64,000 nucleotides of DNA, from the NCBI RefSeq assembly GCF_029223285.1, contig NZ_JARHUJ010000001.1, forward strand, positions 1,116,001 to 1,180,000, in the 5' to 3' direction. The first letter of the stretch is position 1. Each line of letters begins with the position of its first letter. Both the position numbers and the translations under genes were made by a program. A model generated the notes under the pieces. The model did not search any database and was not told the DNA's origin. It saw only the letters and a list, made by a program, of their open reading frames with translations. This DNA comes from Paraflavitalea sp. CAU 1676 (GTDB lineage Bacteria > Bacteroidota > Bacteroidia > Chitinophagales > Chitinophagaceae). Shown here in pieces: positions 14,417-18,350 of the stretch.

Positions 14417-14424
14417 TATCTTTG
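14417..14424 (+). promoter_or_regulatory. Candidate -7 promoter element of purQ
   Basis: TATCTTTG matches the Bacteroidota -7 consensus TAnnTTTG and lies 25 bases before the purQ ATG. A clear -33 TTG was not seen. Confidence 0.5.
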
Positions 14425-14448
14425 CGATTCCTCAAATTAATACCAGTA

Positions 14449-15159
14449 ATGAAGTTTGGAGTTGTAGTTTTCCCCGGCTCGAATTGTGATCGTGATATGC
14501 AGGACGCGCTGCAAAATGATCTGAATCAGGAAGTTATCATGCTTTGGCACAAGGAAAAGGACCTCACCATGTTCACGACAGACGATTGTATCGTACTGCC
14601 TGGTGGATTTTCGTACGGTGATTACCTCCGTTGTGGCGCCATTGCCCGTTTCAGCCCGATGATGCAAAGTGTGATCGATTTCGCCAACAAGGGCGGAAAG
14701 GTGCTCGGGGTGTGCAATGGTTTCCAGGTGCTTTGCGAAGCGCATTTGCTGCCCGGGGTATTATTAAGGAATGCTAATCAGCAATTTATCAGCAAGAACA
14801 TATATATCAAAGGTGTAGGATCTCCCGATCAGGCGCTCAAGATCCCCATTGCTCACGGGGAAGGCCGCTACTACGCCGACGCTAACGTATTGGATGAACT
14901 GGAAGCCAACAACCAGGTGATCTATCGCTATTGCGATGAAACCGGTGCGGTTATTCCTTCGGCCAATCCGAATGGCGCTACCAGAAATATTGCCGGTATC
15001 CGTAATGCGAACGGGAATGTTTTTGGCATGATGCCGCACCCCGAAAGGGCTACCAGCGATGCGCTGGGTAATGTGGACGGTCGTATCATACTGAATTCAT
15101 TGTTAATGAATGCTAAGACTGGTGCTGCACGTTCTGCAGCTGCCGTAGCCAACGCATAG
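14449..15159 (+). CDS. purQ: Phosphoribosylformylglycinamidine synthase, glutaminase subunit
   Basis: 236 residues from ATG 14449 (a longer frame to 14422 is not supported by the family start MKFGVVVFPGSNCDRD). PurQ supplies ammonia from glutamine to PurL/PurS in step 4 of purine synthesis. Class I glutamine amidotransferase motifs are intact: GGFSYGDYLRCGAIARF, the nucleophile elbow GVCNGFQVL (Cys), and the catalytic His/Glu in MMPHPERAT near the C-terminus. The presence of a separate PurQ implies PurS and small PurL elsewhere. It is expressed from its own promoter element, and no other pur gene is next to it. Confidence 0.96.
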   Translation: MKFGVVVFPGSNCDRDMQDALQNDLNQEVIMLWHKEKDLTMFTTDDCIVLPGGFSYGDYLRCGAIARFSPMMQSVIDFANKGGKVLGVCNGFQVLCEAHLLPGVLLRNANQQFISKNIYIKGVGSPDQALKIPIAHGEGRYYADANVLDELEANNQVIYRYCDETGAVIPSANPNGATRNIAGIRNANGNVFGMMPHPERATSDALGNVDGRIILNSLLMNAKTGAARSAAAVANA

Positions 15160-15271: not shown

Positions 15272-15724
15272 ATGAAGAAATACTTGTTACTTGCTCTGGC
15301 TGTTATTGGTTTTGCGGGTGCTTACGCTCAGGAGAAACCTGTTAACTGGAATTTTACTGCCAAAAAGATCGCAGACAAGACTTACGAAGTTCATTTTACT
15401 GCGAACATTACCGGCAACTGGCATATCTATTCCCAAACGGTGGGTGTAGACGGACCAGTGCCTACTACTTTTACTTACACCAAGAATCCTTTGTTGACGG
15501 TGGAAGGCAAACCCAAAGAAGAAGGCAAGCTCATTAAGAAGAAAGAAGAAGCCTGGGATGGCGTAGTGAATTACTTCGAGAAGACGGTGAACTTCGTTCA
15601 GATCGTTAAAGTAAAAGGTGCTGCCAAAACCAACCTCGCCGGCAAAGTAGAGTACATGGTATGTAATGATGAGAAATGTTTACCTCCCGTTGAAGTTCCT
15701 TTTAATGTGAACATCGGCGGATAA
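15272..15724 (+). CDS. Stand-alone DsbD N-terminal (disulfide-reductase) domain protein, copy 1
   Basis: 150 residues: signal peptide (MKKYLLLALAVIGFAGAYAQ) plus a single domain matching the N-terminal domain of DsbD (nDsbD, immunoglobulin-like). The redox pair is intact in VEYMVCNDEKCLPP, at Cys131 and Cys136. In classical DsbD this pair takes electrons from the thioredoxin-like C-domain and passes them to periplasmic partners such as DsbC. It lies 32 bases before a second copy and is followed by full-length dsbD, whose own N-domain lacks the cysteines. It is therefore likely a diffusible electron carrier for that DsbD (inference). Confidence 0.88.
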   Translation: MKKYLLLALAVIGFAGAYAQEKPVNWNFTAKKIADKTYEVHFTANITGNWHIYSQTVGVDGPVPTTFTYTKNPLLTVEGKPKEEGKLIKKKEEAWDGVVNYFEKTVNFVQIVKVKGAAKTNLAGKVEYMVCNDEKCLPPVEVPFNVNIGG

Positions 15725-15756
15725 ACGTTTTCCCCCAACCCCCTCAAACTTCCGCT

Positions 15757-16209
15757 ATGCGATCTTATTTTTTACTCTTGTTGGTTACAATAGGCTTCTC
15801 TACGTTACAGGCACAGGACAAAGCTGTGAACTGGACGGCCAACGCCAGGAAGATCGATAACAAGACTTACGAAGTACGCATCGTGGCCGAGATCGGTAAC
15901 AACTGGCACCTGTATTCACAAAATGCAGGCCCCGATATGCCGGCGCCCACAGTGATCAGTTTCAACCGGAATCCATTGGTGCTGGTAAACGGCAAGCCCA
16001 AAGAAGTGGGCAAGCTGATCACCAAAAAAGAAGCAGCCCTGGATGCTGTTGTAAACTATTACGAGCAGCGTGTGGAGTTTGTGCAGGTGGTAAAGCTGAA
16101 GGGTAAGGTAAAGACGAACTTTACCGGCAAAGTAGAATATACCGTATGTAACAATACAAGGTGTTTGCCTCCTGCGGATTATGATTTCACGGTGAACATC
16201 GGAGGCTAA
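15757..16209 (+). CDS. Stand-alone DsbD N-terminal domain protein, copy 2
   Basis: 150 residues, collinear with copy 1 without gaps: signal peptide MRSYFLLLLVTIGFSTLQAQ and a nDsbD domain with the redox pair Cys131/Cys136 in VEYTVCNNTRCLPP. Shared stretches (VNW, KTYEVR/H, PKEEGKL/PKEVGKL, VVNYYE) show a tandem duplication. Residues around the pair differ (NDEK against NNTR), which could tune redox potential or partner choice. It is 88 bases before dsbD, with a terminator-like hairpin in between that may set the ratio of carrier to membrane protein. Confidence 0.88.
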   Translation: MRSYFLLLLVTIGFSTLQAQDKAVNWTANARKIDNKTYEVRIVAEIGNNWHLYSQNAGPDMPAPTVISFNRNPLVLVNGKPKEVGKLITKKEAALDAVVNYYEQRVEFVQVVKLKGKVKTNFTGKVEYTVCNNTRCLPPADYDFTVNIGG

Positions 16210-16244
16210 GCATTTTGAACGACCAACTAAAAATAATTGATCAA

Positions 16245-16283
16245 AGCAAACGGGTTCCTGCCTAGGGGGCTCGTTTGTTTTTA
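16245..16283 (+). terminator. Terminator-like hairpin between the nDsbD genes and dsbD
   Basis: CAAACGGG-TTCC ... GGGG-CTCGTTTG followed by TTTTT. It lies 36 bases past the stop of nDsbD copy 2 and ends about 15 bases before the dsbD ATG, so it may be a partial terminator giving less dsbD than carrier mRNA. Confidence 0.6.
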
Positions 16284-16297
16284 GACAGAGACAGATC

Positions 16298-18298
16298 ATG
16301 ATAAAGAAAATTTACTTCATCGTACTTTTTTTACTCAGTACCCTTTTCACCATTCAGGCCCAGGACTCGACTGCCCCCAAGGTTCAGTGGCAATTCAATG
16401 CCGCTAAAAAGGCCGATCAGGAATACATCCTGACTTATAAAGCCAACATAGAACCTGGCTGGCGCCTCTTTTCTACCACCGCCAAAGACGACGAGTTGAA
16501 TACGCGCATCGGGTTCGACAGTGCCACGACAGCTAACCTTACAGTAGAATCGACCATCGAGAACGGCCAGCTTAAACAGCAGAAAGAGCCGGTGTTGGAT
16601 AACGCAGAGATCAAATTCTTCGAAAACCAGGTTGAGATCACTGTAACGGTGAAAGCAAAAGAAGGACTGGGCAAGATCAGAGGGGCTGTTACTTATATGT
16701 TCATGAAAGGGGATGAAATACCGAGTCCGGTGGAGGCGCCTTTCCTGTTTGCGATCGATGACAAGGGAGCGATCAGTGCAAAGGCTGGTGGCTTGCAGGA
16801 GTCGGCTGAAGCTGCGCAGGCGCTGAAGAGGACTTCCATCGACATGAACAAACCGGTGAAAGATTGCGGAGGAACGGGTATCGAAGATGACCGCTCCAAG
16901 AGCCTGATGGGAATATTCATCCTTGGCTTTTTGGGTGGTTTGATCGGTTTGTTGACACCTTGCGTGTTCCCTATGATCCCGCTTACAGTTTCATTTTTCA
17001 CCAAACAATCGCCTACTCGCAAAAAGGGTATTTTCAATGCGGTCATGTATGGCTTCTTTATCTTGTTGATCTATGTTATACTGAGCATACCTTTTCATTT
17101 CCTCGATTCCAGCAATCCGGAAATACTGAATACCATATCTACCAACGTGTGGCTGAACATAGCCTTCTTCGTGATCTTCGTGGTATTTGCGCTTTCCTTC
17201 TTCGGATTGTTCGAGATCACCATGCCAGGTGGACTGGCCAATAAAACCGATTCAAAAGCCGGCTCTGGTGGGTTGGGTGGCATCTTCTTCATGGCACTTA
17301 CCCTGGCGCTGGTATCATTCTCCTGTACCGGACCTATCCTGGGTTCGTTGCTGGCGGGTTCTTTATCGACTGATGGAGGCGCCATGCAATTGTCGATGGG
17401 TATGGCCGGGTTCGGCCTGGCACTCGCATTGCCTTTCACCATATTTGCATTATTCCCCAGCTTGCTGCAGTCGTTACCCCGTTCGGGCGGATGGTTGACA
17501 TCGGTAAAGATCGTATTGGGCTTCCTGGAACTGGCACTGGCCGTTAAGTTCCTGTCGAATGCCGACCTGGTGCAACATTGGGGCATTTTGAAACGTGAAG
17601 TATTCTTTGGTATCTGGATCATTATCGGGATTCTGCTTACCCTTTATCTGTTTGGTATCTTACGATTCAAACACGAGGGTAAACCCAAACTCACGAAGAT
17701 CCGTCTTACGTTAGCTATAATCTTCCTGGCCTTCACTCTATACCTGGTGCCTGGCCTTACCAATTCAAAATATGCCAACAGGGCCCTGATCAGTGGTTTT
17801 CCACCGCCGCTTACTTATAGCATCTACGGTAAAGATGCCTTCAAAGGCGTAGAGGCACAGGTGATGAATGATTATGAAAAAGGATTGAAACTGGCAAAGG
17901 AACTCAATAAGCCCATCTTGCTGGACTTTACTGGCTGGGCTTGCGTAAACTGCCGTAAGATGGAAGAGAACGTGTGGCCGGTGCCGGAGATCAAAGAGAT
18001 CATTGAGAAGGAATATGTGTTGGTATCGCTCTATGTCGATGACCGCAAGAAGTTATCGCCCGATGACCAATTTGTATATACCCTTCCCGATGGATCGAAG
18101 AAAGACATTAAGACGATTGGGGATGTATATGCAACCCTGCAAAGCCTGAACTTCACGAGCGTTTCGCAGCCGTTGTATGTAGCGATCACGCCCGATGAAA
18201 AGTTATTGACCCGCCCGGTTGGTTATACGCCGAATGAGAAGGAATATAAGGAGTGGCTGGAATGTGGATTGGAGGCGTTCAAGCAAGTGCAGAAGTAG
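16298..18298 (+). CDS. dsbD: Thiol:disulfide interchange protein DsbD with degenerate N-domain
   Basis: 666 residues. Signal peptide (1-22), nDsbD-like domain (about 25-155), eight-helix CcdA-type membrane domain (about 200-490) and a periplasmic thioredoxin domain (about 505-666). It carries electrons from cytoplasmic thioredoxin to the periplasm. The membrane cysteines are intact (Cys222 in [12 protein letters not shown] and Cys343 in FSCTGPI), as is the C-terminal pair in [10 protein letters not shown] (Cys549/Cys552). The N-domain, however, reads [16 protein letters not shown] where the two upstream proteins read VEYMVCNDEKCLPPVE: Met136 and Ile141 replace the redox cysteines. The N-domain therefore cannot perform disulfide exchange. 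The flanking stand-alone domains presumably supply this step. Confidence 0.95.
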
Positions 18299-18320: not shown

Positions 18321-18350
18321 ACAAAGGGCTCCCCGTGAGCCCTTTTGTTT
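18321..18350. terminator. Bidirectional terminator between dsbD and the Uma2 gene
   Basis: AAAGGGCTC, loop CCCGT, GAGCCCTTT followed by TGTTTT. It sits between convergent genes; its right end touches the Uma2 stop. Confidence 0.85.

Follow-up and report, generated by a model that had tools for sequence, protein, structure and literature searches.

DsbD is the textbook case of a disulfide relay that runs through three domains within one protein. The domains of the E. coli protein, made as separate polypeptides, reportedly still work. Electrons pass in E. coli from Trx to tmDsbD, on to cDsbD and nDsbD, and from nDsbD to DsbC, CcmG and DsbG, as set out in PMC7347389. The stretch of DNA analysed here, 64,000 nucleotides from Paraflavitalea sp. 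CAU 1676 (the window), encodes a DsbD whose attached N-domain lacks the redox cysteines, directly behind two stand-alone nDsbD proteins that have them.

The genes of the locus all lie on the + strand, in the order DUF6427 gene, purQ-like gene, carrier 1, carrier 2 and dsbD. The purQ-like gene (14422..15159 +; glutamine amidotransferase, Pfam GATase_5, E = 1.3e-39) is a frequent upstream neighbour and stands outside the redox system. Behind it come the genes for carrier 1 (15272..15724 +), carrier 2 (15757..16209 +) and a DsbD of 666 residues (16298..18298 +), the intervals, beginning at purQ, being 112, 32 and 88 bases. Directly 3′ of dsbD is a terminator-like hairpin of 9 pairs (18323..18345 +, consensus scan), which is weak because the regional count of such sites equals the chance expectation. 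The motif TANNTTTG, which we take to be the -7 element of Bacteroidetes promoters, has one site 25 bases 5′ of the purQ ATG (14417), and a motif scan found none between purQ and carrier 1; with 31 sites in the window against 43 expected, it was given no weight as promoter evidence. Sites in a Sigma-70 scan of the window were likewise at chance level.

The two carriers, of 150 residues each and 58% identical, contain exactly two cysteines, at positions 131 and 136 (CNDEKC in carrier 1 and CNNTRC in carrier 2), and both have what reads as a signal-like start. Both pass Pfam DsbD_N (28.5 and 30.9 bits; cut-off 25), and C131 and C136, on the active-site hairpin, are invariant in 21 aligned carriers. 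The model of carrier 1 has a pLDDT of 89.5 and its best PDB matches are the nDsbD of Neisseria meningitidis, then that of E. coli; matches in the fold search were 6dps, 6dnv, 3pfu and 1vrs. When the carrier profile was searched against PDB sequences, no hit reached E 0.01. Both carriers are predicted to fold as nDsbD.

DsbD of the window has cysteines at 190, 222, 343, 549, 552 and 656 only, and none before residue 190. In the alignment Met136 and Ile141 occupy the places of Cys131 and Cys136 of the two carriers. The initial annotation had described this replacement, the intact membrane pair (Cys222/Cys343) and thioredoxin pair (Cys549/Cys552), and the two exported 150-residue nDsbDs directly upstream with Cys131/Cys136, and the alignment and the sequence bear out its coordinates and residues. 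The protein matches Pfam DsbD_TM (E = 1.1e-21), with one redox cysteine in each membrane half, and Thioredoxin_7 (E = 6.6e-11), with Cys549/Cys552 as the C-terminal CxxC; all four of these cysteines are invariant in 11 aligned DsbDs with such a redox-dead N-domain. It has the membrane domain, the thioredoxin CxxC and the N-terminal nDsbD fold of a DsbD and lacks the redox-active cysteine pair of the N-domain.

The degenerate domain (about residues 23–158, 16364..16771 +) shows 33% identity to carrier 1 in the part that aligns, and gave no match to Pfam DsbD_N at E 0.001. Its predicted fold is kept: in the model of the whole DsbD (mean pLDDT 82.1) the strand order of the carrier model is found in a block of pLDDT 81–95 covering residues 31–160. 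In Foldseek the full model matched solved nDsbDs weakly (E 2e-3 at best, the aligned range of the query not being listed), and the closest solved structure to the C-domain is 3f9u of Bacteroides. Among close relatives, amino acid change in dead N-domains is 4.8 times that in the membrane part (19 pairs, 15 proteins); for intact N-domains (11 pairs, 13 proteins) the factor is 2.5, and for the carriers beside DsbDs with dead N-domains it is 3.0. Set against silent change in the membrane part, the rate has a median of 0.36 in dead and intact N-domains alike (maxima 0.60 and 0.74, respectively), and thus gives no sign of relaxed function. Since the pairs overlap and the silent sites are near saturation, we conclude from these rates only that the dead N-domain is under purifying selection and is no free relic. 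The membrane part does not depend on it, because DsbDs wholly without an N-domain exist. We would guess that it has a structural function or serves for docking at the C-domain; the suggestion in the initial annotation that the degenerate domain is a docking site is compatible with its kept fold and the purifying selection, but N-less DsbDs, too, occur next to a carrier.

Our preferred reading, to which we give a probability of roughly 75%, is that DsbD is split here, free nDsbD carriers having taken over the relay from the cysteine-less attached N-domain. Cytoplasmic thioredoxin would pass electrons to Cys222/Cys343 of the membrane part, these to Cys549/Cys552 of the attached C-domain, and these in turn to Cys131/Cys136 of a free carrier, which would then depart in reduced form and reduce thioredoxin-like clients in the periplasm. 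Such a relay is suggested by the anatomy of the proteins and by the co-occurrence of their genes.

Co-occurrence was surveyed in 147 genomes of the family to which the window belongs, Chitinophagaceae (at least 142 with a DsbD match; a clade B DsbD was the query of a second search in the family), and in 149 genomes of the class (at least 142 with a match). Loci were taken from the 142 family genomes with a match and from 89 class genomes, mostly those with better matches, and 80 named loci, the best 80 of 588, were added. After matches with less than 150 residues of membrane part had been dropped and identical membrane segments merged, 317 distinct DsbDs were left; a few family genomes are represented there by a named locus from the same record (L321 for G028, for instance). 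A dead N-domain is present in 127 of them and 6 have no N-domain at all, these 133 stemming from 126 sources.

In Chitinophagaceae (n = 147) there are 107 DsbDs with a dead N-domain, 98 beside a cysteine-bearing carrier and 9 not, 4 without an N-domain, all beside a carrier, and 36 intact ones, 20 beside a carrier and 16 not. The other families of the class (n = 90) contributed 73 with an intact single N-domain (9 beside a carrier), 14 with a tandem double one (2 beside a carrier), 2 without an N-domain (L166 and L183, both beside a carrier) and 1 left unscored (L121); none of these 90 DsbDs has a dead N-domain. The named loci (n = 80) include 20 dead (18 beside a carrier), 53 intact single (2 beside a carrier) and 5 double (none beside a carrier), together with one N-domain that is absent through a split frame (L317, uncounted) and one cut by a contig start. 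The loss of the cysteines is almost confined to Chitinophagaceae, and, since the arrangement of dead N-domain and carrier recurs across this family, it is more than chance and no quirk of a single genome. In [Muricauda] yonaguniensis (L317 and L417) the DsbD frame breaks close to the first membrane helix, with the N-domain in one frame and the remainder in another; either a frameshift or an assembly error may be the cause.

The initial annotation had proposed such a survey and had named, as the observation that would speak against an outsourced relay, a DsbD that has lost the cysteines in a genome without any carrier. No such case was found: every one of the 133 DsbDs without a working N-domain has a cysteine-bearing stand-alone nDsbD in its genome, neighbouring dsbD in 122 (116 of the 127 dead, 6 of the 6 N-less) and elsewhere in 11. 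The eleven, all with dead N-domains, have carriers found by whole-genome search whose cysteines were read (G081, G035, G123, G103, G028, G090, G022, G003, G119, G064 and the genome of L306). In 8 of these 11 (G028, G123, G035, G103, G064, G003, G022 and the genome of L306) the distant carrier adjoins purQ, the arrangement also seen in the window, and the usual cause is therefore that dsbD is located elsewhere.

The C-domain of a DsbD with a dead N-domain could also reduce thioredoxin-like clients directly, in the manner of CcdA-type proteins, which act through separate thioredoxins, the free nDsbDs doing something else. CcdA functions without an N-domain, according to PMC4460558. The C-domain CxxC is kept in 127 of the 128 tree-set DsbDs with a dead or absent N-domain, and the window's genome has 34 Redoxin-family matches, counted irrespective of compartment, and thus many possible clients. 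We consider this shortened route unlikely in view of the carrier found in all 133 cases and adjoining dsbD in most of them, the N-less DsbDs included.

As a control, the same profile (E 1e-6) was run against 70 of the 91 genomes whose DsbD has an intact N-domain and no carrier next to it. No stand-alone nDsbD was found in 63 of the 70, a number that may hide some copies because only the best 54 candidates per genome were scored. The other seven (G001, G031, G099, G101, G125, G162 and G201) have a stand-alone nDsbD frame of less than 300 residues; not all of their cysteines were read, and the G162 frame, at a contig end, may belong to a tandem protein. Over the 228 tree rows of known state, the cysteines are lost in 127 with a carrier and 0 without, and intact in 39 with a carrier and 62 without (Fisher p = 3e-29, not to be taken at face value because the rows are related). 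Of 6 independent pairs in each test, 4.3 agreed with the expectation and 0.2 contradicted it for neighbouring carriers (median p 0.125), and 3.0–3.5 agreed and 0 contradicted it when carriers anywhere were counted (median p 0.125–0.25). They run in the expected direction and seldom or never in the opposite one, and are too few to be significant. The intermediate state, an intact N-domain with a neighbouring carrier, exists in 20 of the 36 intact DsbDs of the family. Because this state is found and a lost domain without a carrier is not, the carrier probably came first and the loss later: a free carrier would have made the attached cysteine pair dispensable, and the attached domain may afterwards have been kept minus its cysteines or deleted.

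These counts support the outsourcing of the relay as originally proposed, and confine the part of the proposal that concerned two carriers to the window's own genome. Two neighbouring carriers occur in 1 of 127 dead-domain loci (fetched flanks), that of the window's genome; one neighbouring carrier is the rule and the window's two are a local duplication. As a general claim, two carriers with different partners is thus weak, although carriers may have different partners all the same, because they also occur away from DsbD.

Trees were calculated after leaving out L317 (split frame), L319 (cut by a contig start), L121 (CSDVC spacing, unscored) and rows of less than 400 residues after the membrane start; 306 rows remained, 96 of them in IQ-TREE. 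DsbD of the window is outside the 306-row, 96-row and N-domain trees, since merging had kept the cut locus L195 instead; when added (307 rows) it falls in dead clade A, of 83 rows. The IQ-TREE of 96 membrane–thioredoxin sequences calls for five changes in the dead label, every one required by branches with good support, and for four in the absent label. The FastTrees of 306 and 307 rows also give five changes for the dead label. In the N-domain trees all of the sampled dead domains fall together, at 98/93 with the cysteine loop and 89/83 without it. Holding clade C with its intact sister was rejected (AU p = 2.5e-5), and holding clade A with intact flavobacterial N-domains was not (AU p = 0.149). 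This grouping could come from long branches or from one loss followed by exchange of membrane parts, and the latter possibility limits independent replication. The number of losses may be anything from one to five; two is a fair guess.

The same trees bear on the idea that there is no functional dependence at all, an ancestral purQ–carrier–dsbD cluster having lost the cysteines once and been inherited with its neighbours, with exchanges of the membrane part. The grouping of the dead domains, the rejection obtained for clade C and the single group formed in the N-domain tree by 18 sampled carriers of clades A, B, C and Dd (82/89) fit it, and it is at odds with the five dead groups on the well-supported membrane-part tree, with the result for clade A, with the retention of carriers even where dsbD is elsewhere and with the N-less DsbDs of another family (L166 and L183), which also adjoin a carrier. 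We hold it to be about as improbable as the direct reduction of clients by the C-domain. Within the fetched flanks, a purQ-like frame shares the strand of a carrier in 61 of 82 loci of clade A, 15 of 23 of clade B, 6 of 7 of clade Dd and 1 of 9 of clade C.

The linker cysteine at residue 190 (16865–16867 +), before the first membrane helix, was considered as a substitute redox centre and rejected on its distribution. A linker cysteine is kept in 77 of 82 DsbDs of clade A and in none of those of clades B (0/23), C (0/9) and Dd (0/7). Of the 109 other DsbDs with intact N-domains 52 have one, and it is therefore not coupled to the loss of the cysteines.

The N-domain tree (120 rows thinned from 174, with many forks unresolved) also served as a test of origin from a tandem protein. 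An origin of the carrier from N1 and of the dead domain from N2 of such a protein is unsupported; N1, N2 and the carriers do not sort in this way. The clade A carrier of L292 is outside the main carrier group, its placement unresolved, and the carriers of N-less DsbDs form small separate groups. Five carriers beside intact DsbDs of the family group with those DsbDs’ own N-domains (97/91), and are therefore probably of separate origin. The window’s two carriers, added in FastTree, are mutual nearest rows among the carriers of DsbDs with dead N-domains. The reverse case is seen in family f38, where the DsbD N-domain keeps its cysteines and the upstream stand-alone domain has lost both (L129 2194-2715 +) or one (L159 4226-4732 -). 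Stand-alone nDsbD-like proteins with no cysteine pair also lie directly behind a cytochrome c peroxidase-like gene, named by reading (L198 1456-1956 + in G123; L205 1498-1950 + in G028).

The genome of Paraflavitalea sp. CAU 1676 (8.84 Mb in 23 contigs) contains two DsbD_TM matches only (E 0.1), the window DsbD and a second DsbD without an N-domain (L005 721-2379 -, contig C4), the latter beside a cysteine-synthase-like gene (by reading). There are four stand-alone nDsbDs: the two of the window, one with CNDEKC on contig C4 (L005 2392-2844 -), behind which the N-less DsbD starts after 12 bases, and one with CTNTFC on contig C19 (L212 7445-7909 -). In a Pfam DsbD_N search of this genome only the C4 carrier and carrier 1 were above the cut-off; the C19 protein, missed there, was recovered by a profile built from 17 carriers (A2), with 150 of 172 candidates scored. 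It is flanked by a FecR-like anti-sigma gene on one side and SusC/SusD-like genes on the other, a sigma-factor-like and an arabinofuranosidase-like gene being close by, which makes it a thiol carrier inside a polysaccharide-uptake locus, all of these names being given by reading. Every nDsbD cysteine pair found in the genome is on a free protein, and no DsbD found in it could use an attached nDsbD, because one N-domain is dead and the other DsbD has none. That another, intact DsbD-like protein reduces the carriers, with the dead-N DsbD on a different route, is therefore very improbable here, even if many genomes contain at least two DsbD matches. Chitinophaga sp. S165 (L286) appears to share both arrangements: one carrier is followed by a dead-N DsbD, and a second carrier, at a distance of 110 kb, by a DsbD-like start with no nDsbD match (gene cut by the locus end). 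In a genome of the same genus as the window (G085) one carrier is beside DsbD and one elsewhere.

The split relay may be extended, more speculatively, to one reductase feeding a diffusible pool of nDsbDs as an electron currency of the periplasm, interchangeable or specialised (four here, one in a polysaccharide-uptake locus), with the cysteine-less domain as a docking or gating part for the carriers. We regard this as possible, and well short of the probability given to the split itself. In the open literature, searched by titles and the openings of abstracts, with most subscription papers outside, we found no report of a cysteine-less nDsbD or of free nDsbD carriers in Bacteroidota, which is not proof of novelty. 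A relay whose last station is free and whose old one is dead or deleted would be a natural experiment on why the domains are normally tethered, and on the roles of nDsbD beyond chemistry. If these genes were annotated as DsbD and nothing more, the route of reducing power into the periplasm of these bacteria would be misread.

Four known systems invite comparison. ScsB is a DsbD relative with a different N-terminal part. The structure of its N-domain, 6c29, was among the fold matches of the carrier model, and this fold match is the likeness observed; the ScsB part is larger, with 247 residues, and is joined to the membrane protein, and the N-part of the window DsbD is one domain. With CcdA and its separate thioredoxins (HP0377, ResA), as described in PMC4460558, the locus has in common a membrane reductase that passes electrons to a separate periplasmic protein. 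CcdA consists of the membrane domain only, whereas the window DsbD still has an attached thioredoxin domain and its separate part is an Ig-fold nDsbD.

The tandem nDsbD–nDsbD–DsbD of other Bacteroidota, 19 of the 317 DsbDs (14 from other families of the class and 5 named loci), also has two N-domains per membrane part, both of them, unlike in the window, attached and cysteine-bearing; examples are L097, L102, L103, L104, L106, L109, L112, L114, L117, L167, L175, L176 and L177. Finally, the nDsbD–tmDsbD–cDsbD of E. coli and Neisseria shares with the window the membrane pair, the pair of the C-terminal thioredoxin domain and an N-domain of Ig fold that has its own cysteine pair. In the window, by contrast, the attached N-domain is without cysteines and the putatively active N-domain is a separate exported protein.
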